A stretch of DNA of 64,000 nucleotides from Cinnamomum chago. Its lineage: Eukaryota; Streptophyta; Magnoliopsida; Laurales; Lauraceae. The DNA lies in assembly GCA_038049695.1 (NCBI GenBank), contig CP142458.1, positions 46,157,001 through 46,221,000 on the forward strand. The letters run 5' to 3'. Shown here in pieces: positions 13,521 through 62,794 of the stretch; positions within the stretch are counted from its first letter, which is position 1; each line of letters begins with the position of its first letter. Below the pieces are notes generated by a model. It saw only the letters and a program-made list of their open reading frames with translations. It made no database searches and was not told the origin of the DNA. The translations under genes and the position numbers were made by a program.

Positions 13521-15493
13521 GTCGGTTGTGCTTTGTCTCGCCTAGCAGGAGGTCTTCCTTGGTGAAGGCGATGGTTGCACTTGCTGCTTTTTGAACCGAG
13601 AGGCATTCGATGCAGGATCCCTCAGTTTTCTTCTTTTCTCCTTTTGCGGGAGTTTTTGATTTTTTGACCCTATAGTCCATTTCAATTTGTAGGACTTGTG
13701 GGGCATGTTTGTCGTCATCCGCATCCAGCATTTGTAGTTCTGAAATGAGACTATCACGAGTCTGTGGTGACATTCGTAATAAGTCTAGGATGTGCAGACG
13801 TGCAGGTATGTGTTTGAAGTGTTGAATCAAGTCGTACTTGAAAGCTTCCTTGGGGCCTGCATTTTCATTATTCTTGCCACTAGGGGCGTTTACAGCTTGT
13901 TTTCCCGAAGGATTTACATAAGAAGCAGAAGGTTGGTTGTAGTTTTTGTGGTAATCCCGGCCAGAACGGGTACCTCTACCAACTTCAAGAGCTTCTGGAA
14001 AAGGGTCTTTGTTTGGAAGATCACCCTCGAGATCGAGGGGTTGTTCCTTCTCATTTGCTGAAGATGTCTCTGTGTCAGCATTGCCATCTTCAGTAATTGT
14101 GTTGCATGGAGCATTTTCCGGGAGCAAGTCCTGAACAGCATCCAGCAACCTTCCTTCTTTATCGAATATTTTGTCAGTCCAGACATCACCGATGAGATCG
14201 GGCATTTGGGACCAATTGACCGGATTTTCTCTGAAGAAGATTTCACCGGCTGGAATTTCTTCAAGGTGATCAGTCGGAAGAGGTTTGAGTTCCGATGTCA
14301 CTGTTCCAGGTGACGAAGCCTGAGAAGGTGAGGAATTATCATCCTGAGCTATTGCATTGCAAGTAACTTTGACGGAAGATGCCTCCAAGATGAACTGTTG
14401 GGAATCAGATTCGTCCTCAGATGTAGGAGGATCATCAATCCAACAGCTTTCTTCATTTTCCGGGGTTACCGGAGGAGATTCCTGTAGATTTTCAGGAACT
14501 TCCGGTGCTGGGTTGTGATGAAGCTGATTGATGCGACCTTGTTCTTGCTCTATAGCAAGGTGCTGCAAGATCCTTGCGTATTCATCGAGATCAGGCACGG
14601 GAGCCAAATCTTCTTCTTCGTCTGCTCCTTGTGGTTCATCATGGCTGGGTTCCACTGGAGTGTTTTCTTGAACAACCTCTTGGTCTTCTTCATCATCAGA
14701 CCAGGATCCTTGCGATTGTAATGGGTTATACCAGATTACTGACATAAGATGAGATTCAGGGATCCATTCCTCGTCGGAGAGATATTCTCCTGTTTTGAGG
14801 GATTCCTCCCATTCATCGATGTCACTGGCGGTGTCACTGGACTCGTATCCATCCATGGGGAATCCAACCACCGAGTTGCAAGAGTATGATGCCCCTTGCA
14901 TAGTTTCATCTTTGAGGTGTGGTGGCATGAAATCACCAAGAGTGAATTTTCTTGCCGCCTTTGAAGTCTTAGGAGAGGACTCTTCTGTTGTCCCCAGTGA
15001 AGCGGTAGAGGAGGTCTCTGCCTTTTCAGTGACTTCTTGCTTTTTTGGAGCTTTCTCCTCCTGTTTGAGCTTACGGAGTTGTCTCCTGGCTTGCCTTCGC
15101 TGTCGAGCGGTTGGCTTTGTTTTGACGACCTCCCAATTTTCATCTTCTAGGATATCGGGGTGTACCCATATGGGCTGTCCGTCTGATGTTGGATATGGAA
15201 CCAACTCTTGGGACGTTTGGGTCATCTTTATCACCTTGAAGGAAGTAGTGATCTTCTCTTTTGGTGATTTTTGTTTTTGTCCACACGACACCATGTTGAC
15301 GGAGGCGGGCCCATAGTTCTTGTCGAAGGTAATGACTCCGTTTTTCCACATCTCATTTATCTTCTCTCTCACAACAAAGCATTGACTGAGAGGATGCGAG
15401 ACCATCTGATGGTATGGACAGTACCGAGGATCGTTGGTTTTGCCAACATCTCCTGGTCTTTTGGGGTCAAGCAAGGTGAGTTTACCGTTTGCG
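13521..15493 (-). mobile_element. G copy 1: zinc-knuckle and acidic linker (fossil)
   Basis: Closest to the A insertion, at about 15375-15425, lies CPYHQMVSHPLSQC, a CX2HX4HX4C array that is the usual Tat-type variant of the Gag zinc knuckle (RNA binding). It is followed by more than 500 residues of Glu/Asp/Ser/Pro-rich linker with several KKEK-type basic clusters. No enzyme motif is seen in the linker. Confidence 0.75.
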
Positions 15494-15498
15494 AGAAG
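15494..15498. repeat. Left target duplication of element A
   Basis: AGAAG, repeated exactly at 23258-23262. Confidence 0.92.
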
Positions 15499-15890
15499 TG
15501 TTAGGAATTTTCTAGATTGCAATTTGATGGATGCATTTCATTCTAGCATCATTTGATTCACACACTTGCATTGTTTTAAATAAACTTGAAATCTTGTTTT
15601 ATTCATGCATTGCTTTTAAGTTTTGTAAAAGTATTGATTTATGCATGATTTGTATTTTCATCTTGGATGCATTTGTTTTAGAAAAGAGTTTTCAAGAAAT
15701 CAAGCAAGCCTTTGTTTTAAAAGTTTTGAATCTTTTTAGGCTTTTTATGTCATGTTTTAAAAACCATTAGAATCTTTAAAACATGTTTTCCAAGCTTGAT
15801 TTAGTAGGCAAAAAGGTCCCCCAAGCAAAACCTTCATATATGCAAAAGTTGCATTTTTTGCAAAAAGGGAGGCTGTCCCGGCAGTGTTGC

Positions 15891-16029
15891 CGGTCGACCG
15901 AGAGGCAGGTCTCGGTCGACCGAGACAACTGGAGGTAAAACCTGCAGTTTTTGAACTGAAACCTCCAACGGTCAGAAATCTGACCGTTGTGCCTTCCCGG
16001 TCGACCGAGACCTCTTTGTCGGTCGACCG
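15891..16029 (+). promoter_or_regulatory. Palindromic promoter module of A LTR
   Basis: Four exact copies of the palindrome CGGTCGACCG, each followed by AGA, lie at 15891-15900, 15913-15922, 15998-16007 and 16020-16029. They form two pairs with 22-bp spacing. Between the pairs is a perfect 11-bp inverted repeat (CAACGGTCAGA, 15966-15976 with 15979-15989). The block ends 25 bp before the TATA box, so it is a plausible dimer-binding enhancer. Copies recur in the other A LTRs. Confidence 0.7.
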
Positions 16030-16054
16030 AGAACTAGCCGTTGGGCACTTTTTG

Positions 16055-16063
16055 CTATAAATA
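16055..16063 (+). promoter_or_regulatory. TATA box of A 5' LTR
   Basis: CTATAAATA, with equivalents at 21595-21603 (3' LTR) and 40533-40541 (LTR in G copy 2). Confidence 0.75.
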
Positions 16064-16236
16064 TGAGTTCTTTCCCTTGCCAAAAGTTGGGAATTTTTAA
16101 CCCCTCCTTGAGAGGATTTGAGGCATATCAAAAGGGAAGAGAACCAAGGGATGAAGGGGAAGATTAGGAAAGCTAAAGCTTGGATTAATGAAGTTAAACC
16201 ACCAAGTAGGCTCTTCCTTTCTTAATCATAAGTTTT

Positions 16237-17159
16237 CATGCTTTGTTTTATTTTTGGTAAATCATTTCTAGCATGTTAAACTATGTTTGTGTTGTGTCCT
16301 TAACATATTTTATGTTTTGAGTTGATTTATTGTTTTGGATACAACATCACATGATTCAATCCAAGTAGTACTTAACTTTGGTAAATCTAAGTAGATCATG
16401 TTAATGAAAGAACTTTGGTAAATCATATGTAACATGATCCATATACTTGATTGAATCTTTGATTGTTGTTTTCCATCATAAGAAAATCACTTTCAAAAGT
16501 ATCTTATGTTTTGGATTCAACTTCTTTACAAATCATATGTTTTCATGTTTTGTTTTATCATTGGTAAATCTTGTAACATGTTAACCTATGATATGTTGTA
16601 TCCTTAGCATGTGTTATATTTTGAATAGATCTATTGTTTTGGATACATCATCATTGATTCATCAAAGTAGTACTTTATCTTTGGTAAATCTAAGTAGATC
16701 ATGTTAATGAAATATGTAACATGATTCATATACTTTGTTGAATCATTGGTTGTTGTTTTTCCATCATAAGAAAATCTCTCTCAAATGTATCTTATGTTTT
16801 GGATCCAACATCATTACAAATCATATGTGTATTATTGTTTTAATGCTTCACAACTTGCCTTACTTTGATTGGTAAATCTTTTTCAAGTTGTCCTTATAAT
16901 TACATATGATTTGTTCCCTAATTTCAATCAAATCAATTTTTATGTTTTGAGCTTCATTGATGATTTGATTGACATCCCTATGCATCACATGTTTAGAGCT
17001 AATCCATTACATACAACTTGTGTAACTTTGATATCATTAACAAGTTGTTACTTTTAACATGTGATTGCATTACTTCCTCAATCATAAATGTTTTTGAGCT
17101 AAAACTTTCAAAAGCCTTAGGCATACATTTATGAGCTTTCATTTTCTAAATGATTGAGG
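16237..17159 (+). repeat. Chain of nested inverted repeats in A LTR
   Basis: Perfect arm pairs read from the sequence: 16237-16242/16270-16275; 16273-16279/16300-16306; 16397-16403/16430-16436; 16477-16483/16502-16508; 16544-16549/16575-16580; 16850-16857/16884-16891; 16924-16935/16961-16972 (12 bp); 16984-16993/17056-17065 enclosing 17013-17020/17041-17048; 17076-17085/17150-17159 enclosing 17083-17090/17126-17133. Several loops carry GGTAAATC. It could be structured RNA, but its function is unknown. Confidence 0.8.
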
Positions 17160-17310
17160 ACCACACACACACACTTCATTTGTTTTCATCTTTGCATTCA
17201 TAGTGTGAGTGTGTATTTGTATTTCACTTCCATATCCGCCTATTTTAGAGGCAAATGTAATGAGCTAAAATGAATCTCCATCTAGTGTATTAAAGACACA
17301 ACTTAGTGAG

Positions 17311-17466
17311 ATAACCAACCATGTGGTTGAAGAGGTTATTGCTTAGCCTATAAAAGCATAATGGATAGGTTGATGTTAAGCCTTGAAAAACATCAATGTA
17401 AAGGTTATTGCTTAGCCTTGGAAAGCATATTGTAAAGGTTATTTCTTAGCCTATTGAAAAGCATAA
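17311..17466 (+). repeat. Row of mini-hairpins with TAGCCT loops in A LTR
   Basis: Units of roughly 40 bp contain GGTTATTGCTTAGCCT and an AAGCAT word. Arms are 17340-17344/17354-17358, 17372-17377/17389-17394 and 17409-17413/17423-17427, and the loops read (T)(A)AGCCT(T/A). The same row is in E at about 57505-57640. Confidence 0.75.
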
Positions 17467-17717
17467 ATAGTGGAAATCCGGTGGGGTGTTGGATCACAAG
17501 CCGGTAGTGGATGTAGGCATTGAGGCCGAACCACTATAAATCCTTGTGTGATGGTGCTTGCTTTGTGGTGATTGTTTATTTTAGCTTCCGCATATTGTTT
17601 GATAATCATCACTTGTGACTAGTTTGTTTTAAAGAAGTTAAAATTGTTAAAATTGGTCATAAAAGAAGCTCACCCTATTCACCCCCCCTCTAGGGTTCGG
17701 ATCCCCATGGACTAACA

Positions 17718-20474: not shown

Positions 20475-21038
20475 GGATTGAGGGGGAGTGTAAACCTTCA
20501 TAGGAAGAATTAGTTTTGATCAAATTCACCATTGGAATGCTTTTGAGCCCTTAGAGATAACTTTCATGCATGATAGCCTGTTATGAATTTCATTTTCAAT
20601 TTCAATTGTTAACAGGTGCTACTAATGGTATTTTCCTTGTTTCATGTGTGTAGGTACCTTTGCAATTTAATGGCAAAGGGGGAGAAATTATGCAAGTTCT
20701 CAAAAGGGTGAAGAGAAAGTCCAAGCTTCCAAAGGGGAGTGTTGTGTATGATCTTCTACAAAGGGAGAGAATGCATACCTTGCCAAATGGGAGAAAGAGG
20801 CATGGTCAAAGGGGGAGAGCAAATAGAAGAAACAAAGCTTGGAGCTAAAGAATATGCTTGGCTAAAGAATATTTAAGCACCAAGCATCATGAAGAATGAA
20901 GATTGAAGCCCAAGAGCCCAAGCTATGAGAAGAAGCATCCAAGAAGATTTCAAGCCTTGTCAAGCTGAGGGGGAGCTGAAGACTAAGTGTGTTTATTCAG
21001 TGGTGAGTGTGTTGCCATCAAATTGCAAAGGGGGAGAT
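20475..21038 (+). promoter_or_regulatory. A: series of polypurine tracts ending at the 3' LTR
   Basis: AGGGGGAG-type tracts occur near 20480, 20678, 20756, 20812 and 20965. The last one, AAAGGGGGAGAT at 21027-21038, abuts the 3' LTR and is the likely plus-strand primer. A similar series precedes the 3' LTR of E. Confidence 0.7.
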
Positions 21039-23257
21039 TGTTAGGAATTTTCTAGATTGCAATTTGATGGATGCATTTCATTCTAGCATCATTTGATTCA
21101 CACACTTGCATTGTTTTAAATAAACTTGAAATCTTGTTTTATTCATGCATTGCTTTTAAGTTTTGTAAAAGTATTGATTTATGCATGATTTGTATTTTCA
21201 TCTTGGATGCATTTGTTTTAGAAAAGAGTTTTCAAGAAATCAAGCAAGCCTTTGTTTTAAAAGTTTTGAATCTTTTTAGGCTTTTTATGTCATGTTTTAA
21301 AAACCATTAGAATCTTTAAAACATGTTTTCCAAGCTTGATTTAGTAGGCAAAAAGGTCCCCCAAGCAAAACCTTCATATATGCAAAAGTTGCATTTTTTG
21401 CAAAAAGGGAGGCTGTCCCGGCAGTGTTGCCGGTCGACCGAGAGGCAGGTCTCGGTCGACCGAGACAACTGGAGGTAAAACCTGCAGTTTTTGAACTGAA
21501 ACCTCCAACGGTCAGAAATCTGACCGTTGTGCCTTCCCGGTCGACCGAGACCTCTTTGTCGGTCGACCGAGAACTAGCCGTTGGGCACTTTTTGCTATAA
21601 ATATGAGTTCTTTCCCTTGCCAAAAGTTGGGAATTTTTAACCCCTCCTTGAGAGGATTTGAGGCATATCAAAAGGGAAGAGAACCAAGGGATGAAGGGGA
21701 AGATTAGGAAAGCTAAAGCTTGGATTAATGAAGTTAAACCACCAAGTAGGCTCTTCCTTTCTTAATCATAAGTTTTCATGCTTTGTTTTATTTTTGGTAA
21801 ATCATTTCTAGCATGTTAAACTATGTTTGTGTTGTGTCCTTAACATATTTTATGTTTTGAGTTGATTTATTGTTTTGGATACAACATCACATGATTCAAT
21901 CCAAGTAGTACTTAACTTTGGTAAATCTAAGTAGATCATGTTAATGAAAGAACTTTGGTAAATCATATGTAACATGATCCATATACTTGATTGAATCTTT
22001 GATTGTTGTTTTCCATCATAAGAAAATCACTTTCAAAAGTATCTTATGTTTTGGATTCAACTTCTTTACAAATCATATGTTTTCATGTTTTGTTTTATCA
22101 TTGGTAAATCTTGTAACATGTTAACCTATGATATGTTGTATCCTTAGCATGTGTTATATTTTGAATAGATCTATTGTTTTGGATACATCATCATTGATTC
22201 ATCAAAGTAGTACTTTATCTTTGGTAAATCTAAGTAGATCATGTTAATGAAATATGTAACATGATTCATATACTTTGTTGAATCATTGGTTGTTGTTTTT
22301 CCATCATAAGAAAATCTCTCTCAAATGTATCTTATGTTTTGGATCCAACATCATTACAAATCATATGTGTATTATTGTTTTAATGCTTCACAACTTGCCT
22401 TACTTTGATTGGTAAATCTTTTTCAAGTTGTCCTTATAATTACATATGATTTGTTCCCTAATTTCAATCAAATCAATTTTTATGTTTTGAGCTTCATTGA
22501 TGATTTGATTGACATCCCTATGCATCACATGTTTAGAGCTAATCCATTACATACAACTTGTGTAACTTTGATATCATTAACAAGTTGTTACTTTTAACAT
22601 GTGATTGCATTACTTCCTCAATCATAAATGTTTTTGAGCTAAAACTTTCAAAAGCCTTAGGCATACATTTATGAGCTTTCATTTTCTAAATGATTGAGGA
22701 CCACACACACACACTTCATTTGTTTTCATCTTTGCATTCATAGTGTGAGTGTGTATTTGTATTTCACTTCCATATCCGCCTATTTTAGAGGCAAATGTAA
22801 TGAGCTAAAATGAATCTCCATCTAGTGTATTAAAGACACAACTTAGTGAGATAACCAACCATGTGGTTGAAGAGGTTATTGCTTAGCCTATAAAAGCATA
22901 ATGGATAGGTTGATGTTAAGCCTTGAAAAACATCAATGTAAAGGTTATTGCTTAGCCTTGGAAAGCATATTGTAAAGGTTATTGCTTAGCCTATTGAAAA
23001 GCATAAATAGTGGAAATCCGGTGGGGTGTTGGATCACAAGCCGGTAGTGGATGTAGGCATTGAGGCCGAACCACTATAAATCCTTGTGTGATGGTGCTTG
23101 CTTTGTGGTGATTGTTTATTTTAGCTTCCGCATATTGTTTGATAATCATCACTTGTGACTAGTTTGTTTTAAAGAAGTTAAAATTGTTAAAATTGGTCAT
23201 AAAAGAAGCTCACCCTATTCACCCCCCCTCTAGGGTTCGGATCCCCATGGACTAACA
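21039..23257 (+). mobile_element. A: 3' LTR
   Basis: 2219 bp, same length as the 5' LTR and practically identical to it. One visible difference, in the last mini-hairpin (about 22983 against 17443), gives the TGCTT arm in this copy. It ends CTAACA and is followed by the AGAAG duplication. Confidence 0.93.
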
Positions 23258-31229: not shown

Positions 31230-32340
31230 TTGGCATGAAAGCCAGATTTTGCAGCAAAAGCCAGGTTTTTTGATGGTTTGAAAAGCCGAATTTTGAGATG
31301 GCATGAAAGCCGAGTTTATGGCATGAAAGCCAAAATTTTCTTTTTGGCATGAGAGCCAAGTTTTTTGGTGGCATGGAAGCCAGTTTTGAGATGGCATGAA
31401 AGCCGAATTTTGAGAGGGCATAAAAGCCGAATTTGGGTTTATGGCATGAGAGCCAAAATTTTGGATGGCGTGGAAGCCGAAATTTTGAGGTGGCATGAAA
31501 GACGATTTTGGTGGCGTGAAAGCCAAATTTTGGGATGGCATGAGAGCCAATTTTTTTTTTGAGATGGCATGAAAGCCGAATTTTGAGGTGGCATGAAAGC
31601 CGAAATTTGGGTTTATGGCATGGGAGCCAAAATTTTGGATGGCATGGAAGCCGAAATTTTGAGGTGGCATGAAAGTCGATTTTGGTGGCGTGAAAGCCAG
31701 ATTTTGGGATGGCATGAGAGCCAATTTTTTTTTGAGATGGCATGAAAGCCGAATTTTGAGGTGGCATGAAAGCCGAAATTTGGGTTTATGGCATGAGAGC
31801 CAAAATTTTGGATGGCGTGGAAGCCGAAATTTTTGGTGGCATGAAAGCCGATTTTGGTGGCGTGAAAGCCAAATTTTGGGATGGCATGAGAGCCAATTTT
31901 TTTTGAGATGGCATGAAAGCCGAAGTTTGGGTTTATGGCATGAGAGCCAATTTTTTGGGGTGGCATGAAAGCCGATTTTTTTGGGGTGGCATGAAAGCTG
32001 GTTTTTGTGGCATAAAAGCCGATTTTTTTTTTTAAAAAAAAATGGCATGAAAGCCGATTTTGAGATGGCATGGGAGCCAAAGATTTTTTGTGGCATGAGA
32101 GCCGGTTTTGTTTTTGGTGTAAGAACCAGATTTCGTTTTTGGCATGAAAACCGAAATTTCTTTTTGGCATGAAAGCCAGATTTTTTGTTTTTGGCATGAA
32201 AGCCAATTTTTTTTTTTGAAAACCGAGTTTTGTTTTGTTGGCGTGAAAGCCAGATTTTTTATTTTTGGCATGAAAGCCGGGTTTTTGTTTTGGCGTAAAG
32301 GCCGGATTTTTGTTTTTGGCGTAAAAGCCTAATTTTTGGT
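31230..32340. repeat. G copy 2 3' zone: satellite-like array, 25-bp monomers in 175-bp higher-order units
   Basis: About 45 copies of a word GGCATGAAAGCCGAATTTTG and variants (GGCATGAGAGCCAA, GGCGTGAAAGCC), spaced about 25 bp. At 31504, 31681 and 31853 the variant TTTTGGTGGCGTGAAAGCC returns, so seven monomers form a unit of 172-177 bp. The array lies between integrase end and LTR. Such hypervariable 3' arrays are known from Tat elements (Ogre, Retand) and have seeded genomic satellites. Long open frames on both strands (up to 337 codons) follow from a stop-poor monomer and are not genes. Confidence 0.88.
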
Positions 32341-36290: not shown

Positions 36291-39200
36291 ACTACTATTT
36301 TGGGGTCTAAGCCAGGCATCTCAGCGTAAGACCATGCAAAACAATCAACGAACTCATGAAGAAACGCGATATACTCGGGTAACTCATCATCCTTTATATT
36401 CTTGCTTATGAATACAGGATGTGGGTTATCAGGTGTTCCCAAGTCTATCTTTTGAACAGAATCTTCAGTTGGAAGGTTTGAAGGTGGTTCCTCCATAATA
36501 TTTTCGGAGGCTTCCAGCCCAACAAAGCCTTCTGGAGTTCCAAAGGTATCTACAGACCACGGCTCTGTTTTTGTCCATGGGTCTTCTTGAATGGTACTTT
36601 TCTCAAGATTTGCTATGAGATGGTCCCAATCACCTGTTGAAACTAGGTTGAAGTAGGGCACTTCTTTTGGAGATGACGGTTCTTCTGGGCTAGAAAACCG
36701 TGTGTCTGTATTATTGGACAATTCCTCTTCATCATCAGAGGAATCGTACCAATTGGATGAACTTCCTGGATCCTTAACGGTCAACTCTTCAAAGAGATAT
36801 CCAGGGAGATTGATGTCTTCATTAATATGAGATGTTGAGGCTTGGTCGGCAGGATGACTTTGCAGCCTTTGTGTCAACTGTCTCAAGGGAGCGTCAGGAT
36901 CATACCCCAGCCCATGTGAAGACTTTTCTATGTGGCGGTGGGGTTTCCAACCTTCCAGTTGACTTTTGGTCAGGGTTGGTTCCAATGGCGTGATAATACC
37001 ACGGCCACCTCCCAAACCGATTGGGTTCTGAGCGTCGTAGCCCATTTTCTTCATGATAGCTTGTGCCATTGGACTATACAGGGATAGTTGAGGCATACCT
37101 TCATTTTGGAAAGGTTCAAGCGAAGAATTTGATGAAGAAACTCCCGATTTATGGAAGAAGATTGGCTTTTCTTCTGCTGATGTTGCTGGAACAACGAAGG
37201 AAGCAGATGTCGGATCTTCTATGTCAACGGTTGTCTCCATCGGAGTGAGAGCGGGCTGAACTTGTTGATCATCAGCTTGGCTTGATGATGTGTTGTCTTC
37301 TGGCTCTGAGTCTGAATCCGTGTCTTGCAAGATAGACACAAAGGAGACAGCAAACTTGCCCCCAACCTTTTGTTTTGTCTTCTTTGCTTTGGTGGTGATC
37401 ACCAGAGGCTTTGAAGACTTGAGGGAGACCATGAAGGGAGATTGATTATTCTCTTCGGTTTTGATAGAGGGTTTGTTTTCTTCCGGTGATTGATGAGGAG
37501 CCTTGCCTTTGTCTTTCTGGAGATTTTCGGCAAAGGGCGCTGTTTCTTCCTCCCTTTCTTCTTTTTCATCTTTGTAGATCTGAGCATCTGCGAAATAGAC
37601 TTCTTTGCCTTTGAAGGGCTTTTTGTCTGCAAACACTCGATGTATCAAGCCGTCATTGCCAACGAACTTGATGCTCTGATGTAAAGTTGAAGGGACAACA
37701 TCATTCTCATGTATCCAGGGGCGTCCGAGAAGGATGTTATAGCATGAAGGGGTCTTTATTGCATAGACAGTGACCTCGGAGATAAGGTCACCGATTTGCA
37801 ACTTGAACCTGATTTTGCCGATCGGCCTTTGAGCGCTGCCATCATATCCAAAGATGGACACAGACGTGTGGCTCAGCTTGCTAGGCGGAATGCCCAGTTC
37901 TTCGAGTGCCGAAGTGGAGATGAGGTTGAGTGCAGAACCTAGATCGATCTGGATTCTGCGTACTGGCACCTCTTTGATGTACCCGGTGAAGTACAAGGGT
38001 CGGTTGTGCTTTGTCTCGCCTAGCAGGAGGTCTTCCTTGGTGAAGGCGATGGTTGCACTTGCTGCTTTTTGAACCGAGAGGCATTCGATGCAGGATCCCT
38101 CAGTTTTCTTCTTTTCTCCTTTTGCGGGAGTTTTTGATTTTTTGACCCTATAGTCCATTTCAATTTGTAGGACTTGTGGGGCATGTTTGTCGTCATCCGC
38201 ATCCAGCATTTGTAGTTCTGAAATGAGACTATCACGAGTCTGTGGTGACATTCGTAATAAGTCTAGGATGTGCAGACGTGCAGGTATGTGTTTGAAGTGT
38301 TGAATCAAGTCGTACTTGAAAGCTTCCTTGGGGCCTGCATTTTCATTATTCTTGCCACTAGGGGCGTTTACAGCTTGTTTTCCCGAAGGATTTACATAAG
38401 AAGCAGAAGGTTGGTTGTAGTTTTTGTGGTAATCCCGGCCAGAACGGGTACCTCTACCAACTTCAAGAGCTTCTGGAAAAGGGTCTTTGTTTGGAAGATC
38501 ACCCTCGAGATCGAGGGGTTGTTCTTTCTCATTTGCTGAAGATGTCTCTGTGTCAGCATTGCCATCTTCAGTAATTGTGTTGCATGGAGCATTTTCCGGG
38601 AGCAAGTCCTGAACAGCATCCAGCAACCTTCCTTCTTTATCGAATATTTTGTCAGTCCAGACATCACCGATGAGATCGGGCATTTGGGACCAATTGACCG
38701 GATTTTCTCTGAAGAAGATTTCACCGGCTGGAATTTCTTCAAGGTGATCAGTCGGAAGAGGTTTGAGTTCCGATGTCACTGTTCCAGGTGACGAAGCCTG
38801 AGAAGGTGAGGAATTATCATCCTGAGCTATTGCATTGCAAGTAACTTTGACGGAAGATGCCTCCAAGATGAACTGTTGGGAATCAGATTCGTCCTCAGAT
38901 GTAGGAGGATCATCAATCCAACAGCTTTCTTCATTTTCCGGGGTTACCGGAGGAGATTCCTGTAGATTTTCAGGAACTTCCGGTGCTGGGTTGTGATGAA
39001 GCTGATTGATGCGACCTTGTTCTTGCTCTATAGCAAGGTGCTGCAAGATCCTTGCGTATTCATCGAGATCAGGCACGGGAGCCAAATCTTCTTCTTCGTC
39101 TGCTCCTTGTGGTTCATCATGGCTGGGTTCCACTGGAGTGTTTTCTTGAACAACCTCTTGGTCTTCTTCATCATCAGACCAGGATCCTTGCGATTGTAAT

Positions 39201-39971
39201 GGGTTATACCAGATTACTGACATAAGATGAGATTCAGGGATCCATTCCTCGTCGGAGAGATATTCTCCTGTTTTGAGGGATTCCTCCCATTCATCGATGT
39301 CACTGGCGGTGTCACTGGACTCGTATCCATCCATGGGGAATCCAACCACCGAGTTGCAAGAGTATGATGCCCCTTGCATAGTTTCATCTTTGAGGTGTGG
39401 TGGCATGAAATCACCAAGAGTGAATTTTCTTGCCGCCTTTGAAGTCTTAGGAGAGGACTCTTCTGTTGTCCCCAGTGAAGCGGTAGAGGAGGTCTCTGCC
39501 TTTTCAGTGACTTCTTGCTTTTTTGGAGCTTTCTCCTCCTGTTTGAGCTTACGGAGTTGTCTCCTGGCTTGCCTTCGCTGTCGAGCGGTTGGCTTTGTTT
39601 TGACGACCTCCCAATTTTCATCTTCTAGGATATCGGGGTGTACCCATATGGGCTGTCCGTCTGATGTTGGATATGGAACCAACTCTTGGGACGTTTGGGT
39701 CATCTTTATCACCTTGAAGGAAGTAGTGATCTTCTCTTTTGGTGATTTTTGTTTTTGTCCACACGACACCATGTTGACGGAGGCGGGCCCATAGTTCTTG
39801 TCGAAGGTAATGACTCCGTTTTTCCACATCTCATTTATCTTCTCTCTCACAACAAAGCATTGACTGAGAGGATGCGAGACCATCTGATGGTATGGACAGT
39901 ACCGAGGATCGTTGGTTTTGCCAACATCTCCTGGTCTTTTGGGGTCAAGCAAGGTGAGTTTACCGTTTGCG
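36291..39971 (-). mobile_element. G copy 2: zinc knuckle, linkers, protease, G-patch-like segment (fossil)
   Basis: Zinc-knuckle variant CPYHQMVSHPLSQC at about 39853-39903; acidic linker to about 38000; retropepsin-like protease at about 37680-37990; Lys/Ser linker; G-patch-like glycine pattern at about 36940-37090; acidic linker to RT. Apart from scattered substitutions it repeats copy 1. Confidence 0.8.
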
Positions 39972-39976
39972 AGAAG
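39972..39976. repeat. Left target duplication of the A-family LTR in G copy 2
   Basis: AGAAG at the same G position as 15494-15498, showing the same insertion event was duplicated with G. Confidence 0.85.
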
Positions 39977-42141
39977 TGTTAGGAATTTTCTAGATTGCAA
40001 TTTGATGGATGCATTTCATTCTAGCATCATTTGATTCACACACTTGCATTGTTTTAAATAAACTTGAAATCTTGTTTTATTCATGCATTGCTTTTAAGTT
40101 TTGTAAAAGTATTGATTTATGCATGATTTGTATTTTCATCTTGGATGCATTTGTTTTAGAAAAGAGTTTTCAAGAAATCAAGCAAGCCTTTGTTTTAAAA
40201 GTTTTGAATCTTTTTAGGCTTTTTATGTCATGTTTTAAAAACCATTAGAATCTTTAAAACATGTTTTCCAAGCTTGATTTAGTAGGCAAAAAGGTCCCCC
40301 AAGCAAAACCTTCATATATGCAAAAGTTGCATTTTTTGCAAAAAGGGAGGCTGTCCCGGCAGTGTTGCCGGTCGACCGAGAGGCAGGTCTCGGTCGACCG
40401 AGACAACTGGAGGTAAAACCTGCAGTTTTTGAACTGAAACCTCCAACGGTCAGAAATCTGACCGTTGTGCCTTCCCGGTCGACCGAGACCTCTTTGTCGG
40501 TCGACCGAGAACTAGCCGTTGGGCACTTTTTGCTATAAATATGAGTTCTTTCCCTTGCCAAAAGTTGGGAATTTTTAACCCCTCCTTGAGAGGATTTGAG
40601 GCATATCAAAAGGGAAGAGAACCAAGGGATGAAGGGGAAGATTAGGAAAGCTAAAGCTTGGATTAATGAAGTTAAACCACCAAGTAGGCTCTTCCTTTCT
40701 TAATCATAAGTTTTCATGCTTTGTTTTATTTTTGGTAAATCATTTCTAGCATGTTAAACTATGTTTGTGTTGTGTCCTTAACATATTTTATGTTTTGAGT
40801 TGATTTATTGTTTTGGATACAACATCACATGATTCAATCCAAGTAGTACTTAACTTTGGTAAATCTAAGTAGATCATGTTAATGAAAGAACTTTGGTAAA
40901 TCATATGTAACATGATCCATATACTTGATTGAATCTTTGATTGTTGTTTTCCATCATAAGAAAATCACTTTCAAAAGTATCTTATGTTTTGGATTCAACT
41001 TCTTTACAAATCATATGTTTTCATGTTTTGTTTTATCATTGGTAAATCTTGTAACATGTTAACCTATGATATGTTGTATCCTTAGCATGTGTTATATTTT
41101 GAATAGATCTATTGTTTTGGATACATCATCATTGATTCATCAAAGTAGTACTTTATCTTTGGTAAATCTAAGTAGATCATGTTAATGAAATATGTAACAT
41201 GATTCATATACTTTGTTGAATCATTGGTTGTTGTTTTTCCATCATAAGAAAATCTCTCTCAAATGTATCTTATGTTTTGGATCCAACATCATTACAAATC
41301 ATATGTGTATTATTGTTTTAATGCTTCACAACTTGCCTTACTTTGATTGGTAAATCTTTTTCAAGTTGTCCTTATAATTACATATGATTTGTTCCCTAAT
41401 TTCAATCAAATCAATTTTTATGTTTTGAGCTTCATTGATGATTTGATTGACATCCCTATGCATCACATGTTTAGAGCTAATCCATTACATACAACTTGTG
41501 TAACTTTGATATCATTAACAAGTTGTTACTTTTAACATGTGATTGCATTACTTCCTCAATCATAAATGTTTTTGAGCTAAAACTTTCAAAAGCCTTAGGC
41601 ATACATTTATGAGCTTTCATTTTCTAAATGATTGAGGACCACACACACACACTTCATTTGTTTTCATCTTTGCATTCATAGTGTGAGTGTGTATTTGTAT
41701 TTCACTTCCATATCCGCCTATTTTAGAGGCAAATGTAATGAAATAAAATGAATCTCCATCTAGTGTATTAAAGACACAACTTAGTGAGATAACCAACCAT
41801 GTGGTTGAAGAGGTTATTGCTTAGCCTATAAAAGCATAATGGATAGGTTGATGTTAAGCCTTGAAAAACATCAATGTAAAGGTTATTGCTTAGCCTTGGA
41901 AAGCATATTGTAAAGGTTATTTCTTAGCCTATTGAAAAGCATAAATAGTGGAAATCCGGTGGGGTGTTGGATCACAAGCCGGTAGTGGATGTAGGCATTG
42001 AGGCCGAACCACTATAAATCCTTGTGTGATGGTGCTTGCTTTGTGGTGATTGTTTATTTTAGCTTCCGCATATTGTTTGATAATCATCACTTGTGACTAG
42101 TTTGTTTTAAAGAAGTTAAAATTGTTAAAATTGGTCATAAA
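39977..42141 (+). mobile_element. A-family LTR alone in G copy 2
   Basis: Matches the A LTR from TGTTAG onward, including palindromes, TATA box (40533-40541), nested inverted repeats and mini-hairpins. It sits at the same G site as A in copy 1 but without the A interior. LTR-LTR recombination is the usual origin of such solitary LTRs. Confidence 0.9.
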
Positions 42142-52189: not shown

Positions 52190-53833
52190 TGATGTACTAA
52201 ACTAATTAATTTCATTATTTATCAATAAAGTCATGATTTCCTTTCATGAGATGAATGGTATTTATTACTTAACGCACATGACCAATACATATGACATAAT
52301 GGTTCATGAGATGAACCGGGTCCCAGTAGTATATTAGATGTGATATATGTATATGGATGAGATCCACATACGGGAGACATGTGTCACAAATCTTATACTT
52401 AAAATATCTTCACAACCAGTGATGAGACAGGGCATCTCATCTGATAAGGTTGCAGCACTTTGATCACTATGAGATAGTGTGATTTGTCTCGATCATCAGA
52501 ATGTAAGATTCTGGATCATAGTGCTGGTACATTGGATGTATTGAAGGACCATGAGAAGCACCTTATGAAATACTGTATCGATTTAAGGATTGCTCTCATA
52601 ATTCCCTAGCAATAGGCTCTTAATCCTGAGACATTGATGAACTCACGTTTCTATCTATTCATTTGCTTTGAGTCACCAATGAGTGAGGCCAACTGTAGGT
52701 CAACACCTCGGTGTCTTGGGTACGTGGTAGTAGGACTGTGGGAACATCCAATGGTCAATATGGAATCTATCTACATTATCCCCTTGTGCCAATTAATAGA
52801 TTTATCATTAGTAAGTGCACACCCATCTCGATTAAGAGTTAATTGGATGGTACTGATGATCACTGTAATTAATTGGGGCTCAAGGATAATAAGATGTGGA
52901 TCTAAGATTGTATGGGACATATTTATTCCAATTGATCCATGGATAATGATAGAGGGGCCTACTTGTGGTAATGGGGAAGTTTAGGGTCTTCATTGTAATT
53001 TATTCCTAAGACTGGAGTGCAATTGCATTTATATAGTGGTGTTATTTGCAATTAACTGTGGGCCCGAATTACACATGAGATGTGGGGTCACGTGTCCCAG
53101 TTGGAGCCAGCTTTCTAAGGAATCCCTAGTGGTCCCCACACTAGCCTAAGTATTAGAAAGATTCTATTCTTACTTAAACTCTAAAAGGAAGGAATTAGAA
53201 AGTTACTATTTCTATTTGAAGTGGGACTTCTAATAGTGGTAATAGTAAGCTCCTAATTTGTGTGGAAGTGTGACTTCTAATATAAATTAGTAAGAGAGAT
53301 AAGAGAGGAGACTTTAGGGTTATTTAAAGGGGAATACACCCCTTGGACGTCTATGACATAATACCCACGCCCAAGAGCCTCTAGTGCAAGTGTTGCACAA
53401 CTCTTATTCTCCTCTTCTCTCTTCTAGTTGCCTTCTAGTTCCTTAGAGTTTCTAGTACGATTTTCTCTTGAAGATCCCACACATGTTCTTGAGAAAAAAG
53501 ATCTGATAGAGGGTCATAGCGTGGAAGACAACAAGGTCTTGGAGATCTCTAATTACTTCAATAAGAGTTCTTGTTCTAGTTGGTTGTCTTCTCCTCGATT
53601 AGAGCACTACCGGGCTCCAAAGGTATAATCTGCTTCTTTACTTGTTGTAGATTATTTTGCTGCATGTAGTTGCTGAATTCTATCTTCTAGATAGGTTATA
53701 TTGCTGTACATGATTGATGAGAAAGAGGGATTGCATCCTGGATGTGGTGTATGGCCTTCTGGATACTTGATCCCTAAGTCAAGTGGGTCAAAAGTTTTGA
53801 AAATCTATCCACGAGGCCCACCTACTTCCAACA
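52190..53833 (+). mobile_element. 5' LTR of a Copia-type element
   Basis: The right edge is certain: TTCCAACA at 53826-53833 followed by a Met-tRNA primer site. The left edge is approximate (near 52190, TGTACTAAAC). It matches the partial LTR at 1747-3184 in opposite orientation over 52466-53833. No TATA box stands out. It interrupts or abuts the antisense region of D. Confidence 0.78.
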
Positions 53834-53835
53834 AT

Positions 53836-53847
53836 TGGTATCAGAGC
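53836..53847 (+). promoter_or_regulatory. Primer binding site of the Copia element
   Basis: TGGTATCAGAGC, complementary to initiator Met-tRNA, 2 bp after the LTR end. Confidence 0.85.
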
Positions 53848-55685
53848 CATACCTCATATCTAGTTGTGTTAGATCAGCGATCTAGATCTAATCTTTGCAT
53901 GAGATGCGAAGAGGATAGACCTAGGGCTATGTACGGATCAGTTATGATTGAGTTTGTTTACTTTATGTAATAAATCAATGTTTGGATAGTCGCAAAAGGG
54001 TTTAATTATGATGGAAGGACGGTAGGATGCCATTGAGAACCTTCAAAAGTGTTTTGGAGGTGTTTGGGCTCAAATTGAACAAAACTCAATTTTCTGCCTT
54101 TGTCAGGCGGGTTGACCTGGCCTTGCGCACGGTCGACCGGGTACCTGTAGGGTCGGTCGACCGAGCCCATTGGGCGGTCGACCGGGAACACAGGATCACT
54201 TTATTCTTTAATCCAAATTTTTTGGTCCGGGGGTGCTGCCCGCTGGGCCCTCGCGAGCTGACCGGTCAACTCGACCCCGCCGGGGGACACCCTCAGACCC
54301 CCTCTGCGAAGTGCATGTATTAAAAGGGTGGCTACCTTTGGCATCTTATTTTTCCATTGTGGTTTGGTAACCTAGTTTTGTGAGATGCTTTGTTGTATGA
54401 GATACTAACTTGCAGGTGATAATGTCCTCTCCATATGGCCCACAAGTCTTTTACTTTCTTTTTATGTTTATTGGTTTATTTGAGGCTAAGTGTAAAGGGC
54501 ATCATGGTTTCCTTGGTTTCCCGTGAAAGGGCAAGGTATGGTGAATTTCCCTATAGCCCTTTTATTTCCATGTTTAGATTACCATGTAAGTCTCATAATT
54601 GAGGCATAGGAATTTATGTAATTTTCCTAAATTTTTAAATTCTGGCGATGTCCGAAATGAAGAAGGAAAGTAAAGTTGGACTCCTAATCAAAGAATTTGA
54701 AGATTACCAAAAGCCTTTTGGAGATGCCCAAAGAGTTTGAGGAATCCCAAAGTTTTGGAAAGTCTAGAAGTCCAAGAAGTCTATTCTGCTTGGGCCATGT
54801 GGAGGAGAGGACTAGTTTCTAATTTTAGCTTTTTCTATTTACGGATGAATGCTTAATTTAGAATATTTCCAAATTTGATCCAAACATAGCAAGTTACCAA
54901 AATTGGTCAAATCAAATTAATTTTTGGAAAGAGTTCTAATTAGAGTTGATGGGCCCATGAGATGGATCCATTGGTAACACTAATTTAGAAACTGGATTTT
55001 CCTTAAAATAACTTGACTTGGAACCAATCATTGGTCATATCATGAGTTGATTTGATGTGTATATATGTGGGCCCATGTACCTTAAGGGAAATCCTCAATT
55101 CTAAAATATTAAGTGGGAGTGGGGCATTTATATTTAGAAATCCCCATGGTTTTCCACCATAGGTCCATTGTAAAGAAAGTATTAGCCTCGCGCTATCTTG
55201 AGAATGGCCGTTCCCTACGAAGGGCTTTTATTTCTCTGGTTACTAGATATGGATCTCCTATGGATAGTGTTGGTAAGACGGGGTGGGGGCCCACTCCCCA
55301 AGGAGGACCTGCCCGCAATGGTTGTCATGCAATGCTAGGTGGTGGATCACACTTAACTAAAATAATGATGTAGTATCCCCAAGGATTTGCCTCATATATT
55401 TTGGAAACCAAAGCTAATCGGGAGTCATTCATTATTTGGTATGAGATACCTAGATAATAATGAATGAAGGGGATCATGGATAGTTAGTCTTAATCCTAAT
55501 TTTGACCCTTTGATCCGCACCAATCTAGGTGGTATTCGCACTCCCCAAGGAGGCATACCCCAGGGATTGAGATTCTGATGTATTCTAAATCTAGTGGTTA
55601 TGAGGATTCCCACATAAATTTGTTAGAATACTAAACCCTAATGTCATTTAAATTCATTAATTGAATGTATGGTTATGTGCTACAG
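53848..55685 (+). other. Copia leader or embedded unknown sequence, non-coding
   Basis: About 1.8 kb without convincing coding. At 54130-54139, 54154-54163 and 54175-54184 are three exact copies of CGGTCGACCG, and a TATA-like TATTAAAAGG lies at about 54319. The leader is longer than usual for Copia, so another element may be embedded here, but I find no clear ends. Confidence 0.45.
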
Positions 55686-56130: not shown

Positions 56131-56693
56131 TGGGTAGGAATTTTGTGTATTGCAATTTGATGGATGAATTAACATTTTAATCATCATTTGAATTTTCACG
56201 CATGCATTGATTTAGAAAATCTTGAAATCTTGATTTATACATGCATTGGTTTTTAGACTTGTAGAAATATTGATTTATGCATGTTTTGTTTTTTAAACTC
56301 GGATACAATTAGATTTGAAAAGAATTTTTATAAATCAAGCAAGCCATTGGTTTTAAAGTTTCGAATCTTTTTTGGCTTTTTATGTTTCATGTTTTAAAAC
56401 CCTTAGTATGATTTAAAACATGTTTCCAAGCTTGATTTAATGGCCCAAAAATCCCCACAAAGAAATACTTTGAAATATGCATTTTTTGGGAATTTTGGTC
56501 CCAGGCCAGACTCGCAGTGTGCCAGGTCAACCGCCCCAACAGAAGGCCAGGTCGACCAGCCAAACTATAGGCCTTGTCGACCAGGAAACAGCCGTTGGCT
56601 CCTATCAAATGGCAGTTTTATGACAGTTGTGAAGGCCAAGTTGACTCGGGGGTCATGGGGTCGACCGGGGACTAGCCATTGGGCAGTTTTGAG

Positions 56694-56703
56694 CTATAAA
56701 ATG
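56694..56703 (+). promoter_or_regulatory. TATA box of E 5' LTR
   Basis: CTATAAAATG, equivalent to 62089-62098 in the 3' LTR and to the A TATA box. Confidence 0.7.
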
Positions 56704-57149
56704 AAGTTCATTCCTTTGTCAAAGTTGGAGATTTTTAAGCCATCTTTGAAGTGTTTGGAGACAAGACAAAGGGGATGAACTAAGAGAGACCAAGGGGTCA
56801 TTTGGAGAGCTAAAGCTTGGATTAATGAAGTTAAATCTCTAAGTAAGCTTTACCTTTGTAAATCATATGTTATATGCTTTGTTTAAATTATTGGTAAATG
56901 AATTTTAGCATTATAACTATGATGTGTTGAATCCATTCGTATTTTAATCTTTGATCTAAGTTGGATTGTATTCTTCACTTTGATTTCAAACCAAGTTTTG
57001 TTTTAAAACCTTCATTAATCATGCTTAGCCTAAATCTTTGATTTCTTTTATAGCATGATTCATTTACTTGGTTGAAACATTATTTGTTGTTTTCATTCAT
57101 TTAAACCCTAGTCAAATTTGTTTAGTTTTGAAAACAACATTGTATATGC

Positions 57150-57332
57150 ATCACATGTTTTAAGTTAGTCATTTTCATACAACTTGTGAGCCTTTGATTT
57201 TCATATCATTAACAAGTTTGTATCCATACATGTGATTTGCATTTAACTTCAATCAAATCTTTTATGTGCCTTAAACTTTGAAATGCTTTAAGCATATATT
57301 AATTGAGCTTTGTTTTTAACTTGATTGAAGTT
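57150..57332 (+). repeat. Nested inverted repeats in E LTR
   Basis: Arms 57150-57157/57229-57236 enclose ACAACTTG at 57179-57186 and its partner near 57213-57221. Arms 57245-57256/57321-57332 are a perfect 12-bp pair. Positions match the A stems at 16984-17065 and 17076-17159, but the sequences of the second stem differ in both arms. Confidence 0.8.
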
Positions 57333-57899
57333 ATCACACACACACATCATGAGAATACATCTTTGCATTCATTTAGTGTTTGTGTGAGTTAGTTTTTCAT
57401 TTTTCATATCCGCCTATTTTAGAGGCAAATATATTGAGCTTCAATTGTATCTCATAGAGTGTTTTTGCAAAGACGCCTTCTTTGAGAAATCTCACATTTG
57501 TAAAGGGTATTGCTTAGCCTAAGAAAAGCATTGTGTAAAGGTTATTGCTTAGACTAGAAAAGCATCTTGTAAAGGTTGTTGTTTAGCCTAGAAAAACTAC
57601 ATTGTGAAGGTTATTGCTTAGCCTATTGAAAAGCATAGATAGTGGAAATCCGGTGGGGTGATTGGATCACAAGCCGGTAGTGGACGTAGGCATTGAGGCC
57701 GAACCACTATAAATCGTTGTGTAGTGGTGTTTGCTTGTGGTGATTGTTTTATTAGCTTCCGCATTTTGTTTGTTTATCATCACTTGTGACTAGTTTAATT
57801 TAAAGAAGTTAAAATTTTTCATAATTAGTCACTTATTGTAGCTCACCCTATTCACCCCCCCCCCCCCCCCCCTCTAGGGTTAGGATCCTAGGACTTTCA

Positions 57900-57913
57900 C
57901 TTGGTATCTGAGC
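57900..57913 (+). promoter_or_regulatory. Primer binding site of E
   Basis: CTTGGTATCTGAGC follows the LTR; one base differs from the Met-tRNA site of A and Copia. Confidence 0.7.
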
Positions 57914-57999
57914 CAAGTGCTCTATATTAGGATCAAGTGTTTTTGGAACTCTTGATTAGGTGTAAAAACCTTGAGTCTTAACCCTAGATTTGTGTTTGA

Positions 58000-59458
58000 A
58001 TGAATTCTATTGAAATGGATTCCACTAAGTTAGATTGTTTAGACTTTTGTGTAGATTCTCCTAGACCTCTCTTTCTTCCATCTATTGGAGATTCAAACAT
58101 TCAAATAAATGAATCTCAATGTGAATTAGAAGAAGAAGAATATGATGAAGATGATCTTCAACAAGCCTATGAAGAATTATATACATTATCTTTAGAGCTT
58201 GACAAGAAAAACAAAAAATTAAGAGAAGAATCAAAAAGACTAAAAAAAGAATTAGTTTCTTCTAAAGATGAACTTAGAGAGAAAGAAGAAGTAATACAAT
58301 GTTTAGACTCTAACTTCATGATCTCTTTAAATAACTTATCCAATATCAACGATGAACTAAATGAGATTAAGATAAGTTATGATGATCTTAAAAAGGAAAA
58401 TTTAAATCTAAGAGATCAACTACAAAAGCAAGACAAAGACTTTATCAATTTAGAATCCAAGTTGACAACTTCCAAGGACAACTTGTCTAATGCTCAAAGT
58501 ATGGTAAAAAAAAAACTTAGAACTTGGATCTAAAGTTGTTAATGAACTAAAAGTTGAATTAAAACTTGCCAATGAAGAACTAAATAATTATAAGGAAAAT
58601 GAAAATGAACTTTTAAAAGTTAAAAATGAAAATTCATTCCTTATAACCAAAGTCACTCAACTTGAAGGGTACAAACAAAAGTATGAGTGCAAGTTTACCC
58701 AAGGTGAAGAGAGATTTGAAAAGTTGTTTAAATTGGGTAAATCTCATGGACATAGGACGGGTCTTGGTTTTGATAAGTATACTTCACATGACCCTAAATT
58801 CACCAACAGTTTTGTGAAAGGTGAGTCCTCTTTCTCTAGCACTTTCTCTCCTATGTCCAAAACTAAATGTCATCATTGTGGCAAAGAAGGACATTTCAAA
58901 TTTGAGTGCAAATTGAGGAAAAGTCATATGTCTAAACCCATCTTTGAACCTAAGAAAGTTAAATATAATTCTATGAAGGGTAAGACTTTGAATTCCAAGG
59001 AAGACTCTAAGAAGTTCAAACAAGTTAAAACAATTCAAAAAGAGTCATCCAAGATAGATTTTAAAAAGACTAATAATCAAAATAAATTTATCAAAAAGAA
59101 ACTTCTCACTTTACCTCCTTTAACCTTAGAAATGAAAGAATTCTTGAAAAAGGTTGAAAAGTTAAAATTAAAATTCAAAAGACAAAAAGAGGGAGGAAAA
59201 GCCAAAAGAAATGAGAAGTATAAGAAGAAAAGAAAAATGAACCAATCCCCTAAGAAACAATCTCACCAACTTCAAAAGACTAATCACCAATCTAAGCTAA
59301 ATTTAGTAAAATCTAAATATCATGGTGATAAGTCTAAATTGAAAATATATCAAGTCAAATCTCCTATAGTTGGTGGGACTTCCAAACCAGACCTCAAAAA
59401 TCAACCATCTCAAGACCTTAGGTGGATTCCTAAAGTTAGATACTTAGACAAACCTTAA
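58000..59458 (+). mobile_element. E: Gag-like region with coiled coil and CCHC zinc knuckle (fossil)
   Basis: The first part is a long charged helix (LELDKKNKKLREESKRLKKE and following heptads). The later part has CHHCGKEGHFKFEC (about 58870-58911), a canonical CX2CX4HX4C knuckle, then a very Lys-rich tail and RWIPKVRYLDKP. The combination of coiled coil, knuckle and a W-(I/V)-PK tail is typical of Gag in the SIRE/Tork side of plant Copia; the assignment to SIRE is an inference. It would bind element RNA and form the particle. A has no equivalent. Confidence 0.75.
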
Positions 59459-60944: not shown

Positions 60945-61525
60945 TGAGGGGGAGTGTAAACCTTCATAGGAAGTATTAGGTTTGATCAAATTGACCATTG
61001 GATTGGCTTTGAACCCTTAGAGACTACTACCATACATGATAACCTGTTATGAATTTCATTTTCGATTTCTTTTGTTAACAGGTGCTACTAAAAGGTATTT
61101 TCCTTGTTTCATGTGTGTAGGTACCTTTGCAATTTAATGTCAAAGGGGGAGAGAGCATTCAAGTTCTCTTAAGGGGAAGAGAGTTTCCAAGCTTCCTAAG
61201 GGTAGATATTGTATGATCTTCTACAGGGGGAGAGAATGCATATCTTGCCAAAGGGAGAGAGAGGCATGGTCAAAGGGGGAGAGGTAGAAGAAAGAAAGCT
61301 TGGGAGCTAAAGAAGATGCTTGGCCATAGAGAGGAAGATGAAAAGAAAGCTTGAAGAATGATCAAGCTCCAAGCATCAAGAAGATTGAAGAAAAAGAACT
61401 AGAGCCCAAGCCAAGAGAAGAAGCATCCAAGAGATTTCAAGAGTTGTCCAGCTAAGGGGGAGCTGAAGACTTAGTGTGTATATTCAGTGGTGAGTGAGTT
61501 GCCATCAAATTGCAAAGGGGGAGAT
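60945..61525 (+). promoter_or_regulatory. E: series of polypurine tracts before the 3' LTR
   Basis: AGGGGGAG-type tracts recur near 60950, 61145, 61225, 61275 and 61455. The last, AAAGGGGGAGAT at 61514-61525, abuts the LTR. Confidence 0.68.
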
Positions 61526-62794
61526 TGTTAGGAATTTTGTGTATTGCAATTTGATGGATGCATTAACATTTTAATCATCATTTGAGTTTTCACACATGCA
61601 TTGATTTAGAAAATCTTGAAATCTTGATTTATACATGCATTGGTTTTTAGACTTGTAGAAATATTGATTTATTCGTGTTTTGTTTTTTAAACTTGGATAC
61701 AATTAGATTTGAAAAGAATTTTTATAAATCAAGCACGCCATTGGTTTTAAAGTTTCGAATCTTTTTTGGCTTTTTATGTTTCATGTTTTAAAACCCTTAG
61801 TATGATTTAAAACATGTTTCCAAGCTTGATTTAATGGCCCAAAAATCCCCACAAAAAAAATACTTTGAAATATGCATTTTTTGGGAATTTTGGTCCCAGG
61901 CCAGACCCGCAGTGTGCCAGGTCGATCGGCCCAACAGAAGGCCAGGTCGACCGGCCAAACTAAAGGCCTGGTCGACTGGGAAAGAGCCGTTGGCTCCTGT
62001 CAAATGGCAGTTTTATGACCGTTGTGAAGGCCAAGTCGACCCGGGGGTCATGGGGTCGACCGGGAACTAGCCGTTGGGCAGTTTTGAGCTATAAAATGAA
62101 GCTCATTCCTTTGTCAAAGTTGGAGATTTTTAAGCCATCTTTGAAGTGTTTGGAGACAAGACAAAGGGGATGAACTAAGAGAGACCAAGGGGTCATTTGG
62201 AGAGCTAAAGCTTGGATTAATGATATTAAATCTCTAAGTAAGCTATACCTTTCTAAATCATATGTTATATGCTTTGTTTAAATTATTGGTAAATGAATTT
62301 TAGCATTATAACTATGATGTGTTGAATCCATTCTTATTTTAATCTTTGATCTAAGTTGGATTGGATTCTTCACTTTGATTTCAAACCAAGTTTTGTTTTA
62401 AAATCTTCATTAATCATGCTTAGCCTAAATCTTTGATTTCTTTTATAGCATGATTCATTTACTTGGTTGAAACATTATTTGTTGTTTTCATTCATTTAAA
62501 CCCTAGTCAGATTTGTTTAGTTTTGAAAACAACATTGTATATGCATCACATGTTTTAAGTTAGTCATTTTCATACAACTTGTGAGCCTTTGATATTCATA
62601 TCATTAACAAGTTTGTATCCATACATGTGATTTGCATTTAACTTCAATCAAATCTTTTATGTGCCTTAAACTTTGAAATGCTTTAAGCATATATTAATTG
62701 AGCTTTGTTTTTAACTTGATTGAAGTTATCACACACACACACACATACATCATGAGCATACATATTTGCATTCATTTAGTGTTTGTGTGAGTTA
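61526..62794 (+). mobile_element. E: 3' LTR, interrupted
   Basis: Begins TGTTAGGAATTTTG and matches the 5' LTR until 62794, where an unrelated sequence starts. TATA box at 62089-62098. The remainder of the LTR is outside the window or beyond the inserted element. Confidence 0.82.

Follow-up and report, generated by a model that had tools for sequence, protein, structure and literature searches.

Retroelement leaders carry packaging and dimerisation hairpins. One retroelement that has such a leader is Ty1, a member of the Copia superfamily. The stems of the Ty1 leader are required for retrotransposition and can be rescued by compensatory mutation (PMC5454406). For elements of the Sirevirus type, an average LTR length of 1.28 kb has been given and CGGTCGACCG has been listed as the repeated motif of a Vitis element (Bousios et al. 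2010, PMC2829016); palindromes able to form hairpins have also been published for Sirevirus LTRs, as cited in PMC10760457. Here we describe two related elements, A and E, whose LTRs contain a run of predicted hairpins downstream of the TATA box.

The window, i.e. the whole stretch of 64,000 nucleotides that was analysed, is plant-like DNA rich in LTR retrotransposons, a plant origin being suggested by the types of elements. The LTRs, hairpins and repeat row below are given on the + strand. Element A has a 5' LTR at 15499-17717 with a TATA box at 16056-16062 and a 3' LTR at 21039-23257; it is flanked by the target duplication AGAAG, and there is one difference between its two LTRs. Element E has a 5' LTR at 56132-57899, which contains a TATA box at 56695-56701 and a polyC signal near the 3' end, and a 3' LTR at 61526-62794 that is shortened by other sequence. 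The 5' LTR of E begins with GGGTAGG and the 3' LTR with TGTTAGG. The sequence adjoining the break at 62795 contains TGTCGCGACCCCGGACCG, which may be the start of another LTR element. There is also an A-type LTR that has no internal region (39977-42141, copy S). It is cut near its 3' end, the flanking sequence around it is itself a second copy, and it is not counted as an independent lineage because it is 99.86% identical to the 3' LTR of A. The stretches 14500-17663 and 38978-42141 are two copies of one sequence with Gypsy-like frames (99.94% identical over 3164 bases), and the A LTR is found at the equivalent place in both, as part of the whole A element in one and as the truncated copy S in the other. 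Either a segmental duplication followed by loss or a matter of the assembly would account for this pair.

A and E are short Sirevirus-type Copia elements, as judged from non-coding motifs, and are probably non-autonomous. The features shared with the Sireviruses described by Bousios et al. (PMC2829016) are the junction AGGGGGAG-AT/TG of the polypurine tract (PPT), multiple upstream PPTs, an inverted repeat at the PPT, the CGGTCGACCG motif with the TATA box downstream of the motifs, the polyC signal and the PBS TATCAGAGC. The terminal PPT lies at 21029-21036 in A and at 61516-61523 in E, in both cases followed by ATTG. Counting the terminal one, 5 copies in A and 6 in E lie upstream of the 3' LTR; the 11 exact matches in the window (1.63 expected) all fall within these two elements. 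The bordering inverted repeat, read directly, consists in both elements of CCATCAAATTGCAA beside the PPT and TTGCAATTTGATGG within the LTR, and a polyC-rich signal is present close to the LTR end in both. The PBS junction of A, CA/AGTGG/TATCAGAGC, is exactly of the Sirevirus type, while that of E, CA/CTTGG/TATCTGAGC, is two bases off. The CGG-CCG palindromic motif upstream of the TATA box occurs in A as four exact copies of CGGTCGACCG per LTR; it is weak in E, which has one-mismatch copies only (one in the 5' LTR, two in the 3' LTR). In comparison to the published elements (PMC2829016) the LTRs are longer, i.e. 2219 bp in A and 1768 bp in E versus the 1.28 kb average, and the elements are shorter.

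No pol-like frame was recognised by eye among the frames of at least 50 aa between the LTRs of A and E. The one E frame that was scanned with Pfam contains a CCHC zinc knuckle; the gag-like region of E comprises two overlapping frames (58000-58533 and 58508-59458), the knuckle being in the second. Two other observations concern the remainder of the window. At 53832-53847 there is a perfect Sirevirus-type LTR/PBS junction, CA ATTGG TATCAGAGC, that comes from another Copia-like element; three exact copies of CGGTCGACCG lie just inside it (54130-54184) and one more at 51427. A long degenerate tandem array of TGGCATGAAAGCCGAATTTT-like units of about 24-25 bases occupies 31267-32340, part of which (31384-31929) has a 173-base period.

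The hairpin run of E begins approximately 280 bases past the TATA box at 56695 and consists, in this order, of X (56978-57083), Y (57082-57143, TGTTGTTTTC/GAAAACAACA), H1 (57146-57242, ATGCATCACATGT / ACATGTGATTTGCAT with a TT bulge) and H2 (57244-57333). The run of A is enlarged in two ways. The X hairpin is present twice (X1, 16345-16462; X2, 16649-16752), doubled by a duplication inside the LTR (16224-16842), whose slightly overlapping copies of about 310-335 bases are 82% identical. Moreover, a paralogue unit made up of H1' (16816-16914, with a 13-bp outer helix and no bulge) and H2' (16919-16977, TCAATCAAATC/GATTTGATTGA) stands ahead of H1 (16980-17070, with a single T bulge) and H2 (17075-17160).

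The predicted folds of both runs are more stable than those of shuffled sequences, with z -4.88 for E 56980-57340 (none of 100 shuffles as stable) and z -7.02 for A 16340-17165 (none of 20), versus z -1.18 for the stretch just upstream of the E run (23 of 200 shuffles as stable). The most stable part of the A LTR is not the hairpin run, however, but the motif-bearing region that precedes the TATA box (z to -7.6). When the miRNA-like lowMFE threshold of PMC10760457 is used, i.e. -40 kcal/mol in 110 nt, 162 of the 2110 windows of the A LTR fall below it, starting at 15809-15970; none does so in the run of A (0/717, lowest -27.2) or of E (0/254, lowest -23.3), or across the whole E LTR (0/1666). 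Rfam at gathering thresholds gave no match in the window. The reverse strand often folds as well as the sense strand or better. A second TATA-like stretch lies 3' of the run, at 17535 in A and at 57708 in E. If the E leader is assumed to start 30 bases downstream of the TATA box, it would extend over 56724-57999, i.e. 1276 nt with 15 ATGs ahead of the frame that opens at 58000.

The first-pass annotation had noted that the stems at A 17076-17085/17150-17159 and E 57245-57256/57321-57332 differ in both arms together, and had taken this as compensatory change. The sequences and coordinates are right. In full, this hairpin, H2, pairs over 17075-17085/17150-17160 in A, i.e. 11 bp, and over 57244-57256/57321-57333 in E, i.e. 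13 bp, the outermost two pairs of E being unpaired in A. The two stems are also homologous, as their 7-bp core TCAATCA/TGATTGA is aligned by MAFFT without structure input. In all three MAFFT modes no A pair is broken, and 3 of the 11 have other bases in both arms in E; from A to E these double changes are T-A/A-T, C-G/T-A and T-A/A-T, all still Watson-Crick, and the remaining 8 pairs are unchanged. The number of doubles depends on the aligner: three Needleman-Wunsch settings give 2, 0 and 0 doubles from A to E, fewer because the stem ends are gapped. The paired change in H2 is probably real, though its independent support is thin, there being very few independent copies: the independent material consists of two element lineages and the A-internal paralogues only. 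No relatives were found by DNA pattern in viral and genome contigs or by blastn of plasmids.

One may ask whether an AT-rich sequence was simply chosen for its paired look, the agreement of the arms being due to chance. The variation of the double count with the choice of alignment speaks for this explanation, and the behaviour of the changes over the whole LTR speaks against it. Helices of 8 or more Watson-Crick pairs that A and E share in register in a five-row MAFFT alignment were all considered, which gave 7 helices with 6 kept double changes, three in H2, two in the inner helix of X and one near 15603. When the changes were permuted, either in 60-column blocks or LTR-wide, none of the 300 runs of each kind produced a shared helix that was 10 bp or longer and held at least 2 doubles. 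A null in which the mask of changes is rotated, so that their clustering is preserved, yielded 0.08 doubles on average; 6 were reached in 0 of 1000 rotations with A or with E as the reference, and 3 doubles within one helix of 10 bp or more were seen in 1 of 1000. Two internal controls had zero double changes, i.e. a long non-coding stretch, which is of higher identity (0.88-0.90), and a short one of 415-422 columns (identity 0.79-0.84; 0 or 1 helix). The long control had 9 shared helices versus 2.7-3.0 under the null, and the number of shared helices was therefore not used as evidence; downstream of the TATA box this number is not clearly above the null (13-53 of 200 runs reach it). With five aligners, pairwise A/E alignments downstream of the TATA box gave 3, 3, 3, 2 and 0 doubles, every one of them in H2; the doubles of X are seen only in the five-row alignment.

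A second test, in which helices were found in one sequence alone and then checked in the other, was confined to the collinear stretch. Pairs of A helices kept in E numbered 42, in contrast to about 31 under permuted changes (P 0.0007-0.0013 in three MAFFT modes; 0.06, 0.11 and 0.20 in three other settings). The pairs of E helices kept in A also exceeded permuted changes, with P 0.000-0.012 over six settings. The excess of double changes was modest. From A to E, six settings gave 5, 5, 5, 4, 2 and 1 kept doubles versus 0.6-1.95 under the null, with P 0.027-0.043 for MAFFT and 0.015, 0.20 and 0.47 for the other settings. From E to A there were 4, 4, 4, 3, 1 and 0, with P 0.046-0.085 for MAFFT and 0.036, 0.50 and 1.0 for the others.

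Mapping of whole-hairpin MFE folds with a gap-prone aligner gave a result in line with chance. None of the 24 directed comparisons had more than 1 kept double or exceeded its own null (lowest P 0.08), partly because this aligner gaps the stem ends. In the same mapping, 4 of 6 comparisons showed H1 pairs kept beyond the permuted null (P 0.0015-0.0115), 1 of 6 did so for X pairs, and none for those of Y or H2. Hairpin Y is strong in E; its pairing in A does not go beyond the null in any of 4 A/E comparisons (P 0.22-0.98).

The smaller features that had been cited along with H2 fared worse. Within the row of four repeats of about 35 bp in E (57504-57642), one unit does read GTTT with AAAC (57581-57584/57594-57597), as had been pointed out, and by eye the second unit of A's row shows a like C-G to T-A exchange. 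Nevertheless, the row is no more structured than dinucleotide shuffles (z +1.42 in E, z -0.67 in the 3' LTR of A), and its 4-bp inverted repeats are not enriched, the observed count being reached by 141 of 1000 shuffles in A and 382 of 1000 in E. The row was therefore rejected as a structured feature, and this shuffle-level result is again what chance would give. It is also true that one stem base is not the same in the two LTRs of A (T at 17444, G at 22984), but the change is one-sided and unpairs GCTT/AAGC; since it breaks a pair, we do not count it in support of kept pairing. The 5' and 3' LTRs of E differ by 38 substitutions across their shared part, 3 of which are within 56980-57340, all at unpaired positions of a predicted fold in which 58% of the bases are paired; as a neutral control this comparison was dropped, 3 being too few. 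Downstream of the row a block of about 75 bases (57643-57718 in E, 17471-17545 in A; CCGGTGGGGT...GCCGAACCACTATAAATC) has hardly changed between A and E, the mean identity of aligned LTR columns being 73%. It can be folded as two hairpins (z -1.7 in E, -1.2 in A) and, being nearly invariant, is uninformative on covariation. All considered, we regard chance as an improbable source of the pattern as a whole.

The conclusion originally drawn, i.e. that the paired substitutions indicate that structure and not sequence was kept, can be retained in part. The doubles of H2 exceed the whole-LTR null, and those of inner X do likewise in the five-row alignment. The wording is too strong, however: other shared helices are conserved in sequence (in the H1 core, MAFFT shows all 9 of 9 pairs to be alike in A and E), the mini-hairpin row fails, and in the collinear stretch one-sided changes break 8 pairs, summed over the six A helices, versus 5 kept doubles (MAFFT, A to E). 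The inverted repeats exist, they are homologous between A and E, and they contain more paired change than one stringent null. Judged from the alignments, H2 and inner X, and more loosely H1, appear to have retained their pairing since the divergence of A and E, in part via changes in both arms.

The paralogues within A add further states at homologous pairs, namely G-C / G-T / A-T in inner X and C-G / T-A in H1. Their registers were set by hand to fit pairing, so that the counts of doubly changed pairs (4/14, 4/13 and 2/9) are descriptive only. In such a register H1' differs from H1 on both sides of three adjacent outer pairs and lacks the bulge. This pattern, three adjacent pairs changed and a bulge gone to leave a 13-bp helix, fits a single template switch. 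Template switching, in host DNA replication or in reverse transcription, would rewrite one arm from the other, so that paired changes arise in one step and with no selection on structure; it has been published as a source of multi-base compensatory changes and perfect stems (PMC8794818). The absence of G-U among the kept doubles (none in 12 of 12 rows) agrees with such homogenisation, as do the lack of an excess of G-U intermediates (0 or 1 one-sided G-U per comparison) and the like folding of both strands, and the three A/E doubles of H2 could be a single event. On the other hand, with H2' as a third row, parsimony assigns two H2 doubles to the branch of A and a further one to that of H2'; in this hand-set register more than one event is therefore needed overall, and the series in inner X looks stepwise. 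We consider homogenisation possible, though rather unlikely.

Given the scarcity of G-U intermediates and the often equal or better folding of the reverse strand, nothing points to sense RNA in particular, and RNA is no better supported by the data than DNA. At the DNA level, the repeats might be paired protein-binding sites or cruciforms whose arms co-vary because the half-sites track one protein. Palindromic repeated motifs are indeed known in Sirevirus LTRs (PMC2829016), and the four exact CGGTCGACCG copies per A LTR are of this kind. Yet the TATA box lies downstream of the published motifs and upstream of the hairpins; moreover, the helix arms are 12-73 bases apart (helices of the paralogue comparison), unlike compact dyads. 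A DNA dyad seems to us improbable.

The reading that we prefer is a structured leader RNA with maintained pairing, to which we assign a probability of roughly 0.42, with template-switch repair as a close rival. For this leader we infer transcription from the TATA box after the motif region, folding of the RNA in the cell, and any function. The LTR half downstream of the TATA box would be transcribed into the leader, where the imperfect inverted repeats X, Y, H1 and H2 are predicted to fold as consecutive hairpins. The element may then use the folded RNA, most likely to choose, dimerise or package its genomic RNA, roles in keeping with an element that would depend on proteins supplied in trans; alternatively, the fold might carry ribosomes past the long leader. 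As BARE uses two TATA boxes (PMC3735527), and as a TATA-like stretch follows the run, some transcripts could lack the run. A more far-reaching version of the structured-leader reading would see the post-TATA half of the LTR as a modular array of covarying hairpins that serves a plant Copia lineage as its signal for genomic-RNA selection and dimerisation; non-autonomous elements would have retained the array so as to be packaged by partner proteins, and duplicated hairpin modules would have made it larger in A. This version we hold to be unlikely.

A hairpin run with co-changing arms in a multi-copy family would be an easy place to seek signals of this kind. Selection for RNA shape and template-switch repair leave similar covariation, and a family-wide alignment could separate them. 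In the accessible portions of one open full-text library we found no account of a run of post-TATA hairpins that shows paired change, and such a run is not among the motifs described in the consulted part of PMC2829016. The published template-switch cases (PMC8794818) resemble ours in having paired and multi-base stem changes; those are in RNA genes, and the likeness here is one of pattern. The Ty1 leader with its stems and kissing hairpins (PMC5454406) is likewise a leader with hairpins, but pairing was tested there by compensatory mutation; the likeness seen in A and E is one of position and of predicted hairpins and does not take in a pseudoknot or kissing pair. Further counterparts are the published hairpin palindromes of Sirevirus LTRs (PMC10760457). 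What resembles them in A is the motif region ahead of the TATA box, where the LTR reaches its greatest stability. The run described here differs from them: it is AT-rich, weaker and longer-spaced and lies past the TATA box. Hairpin-forming Sirevirus LTRs are thus already known, and the post-TATA position of the present run looks like a variant of them.
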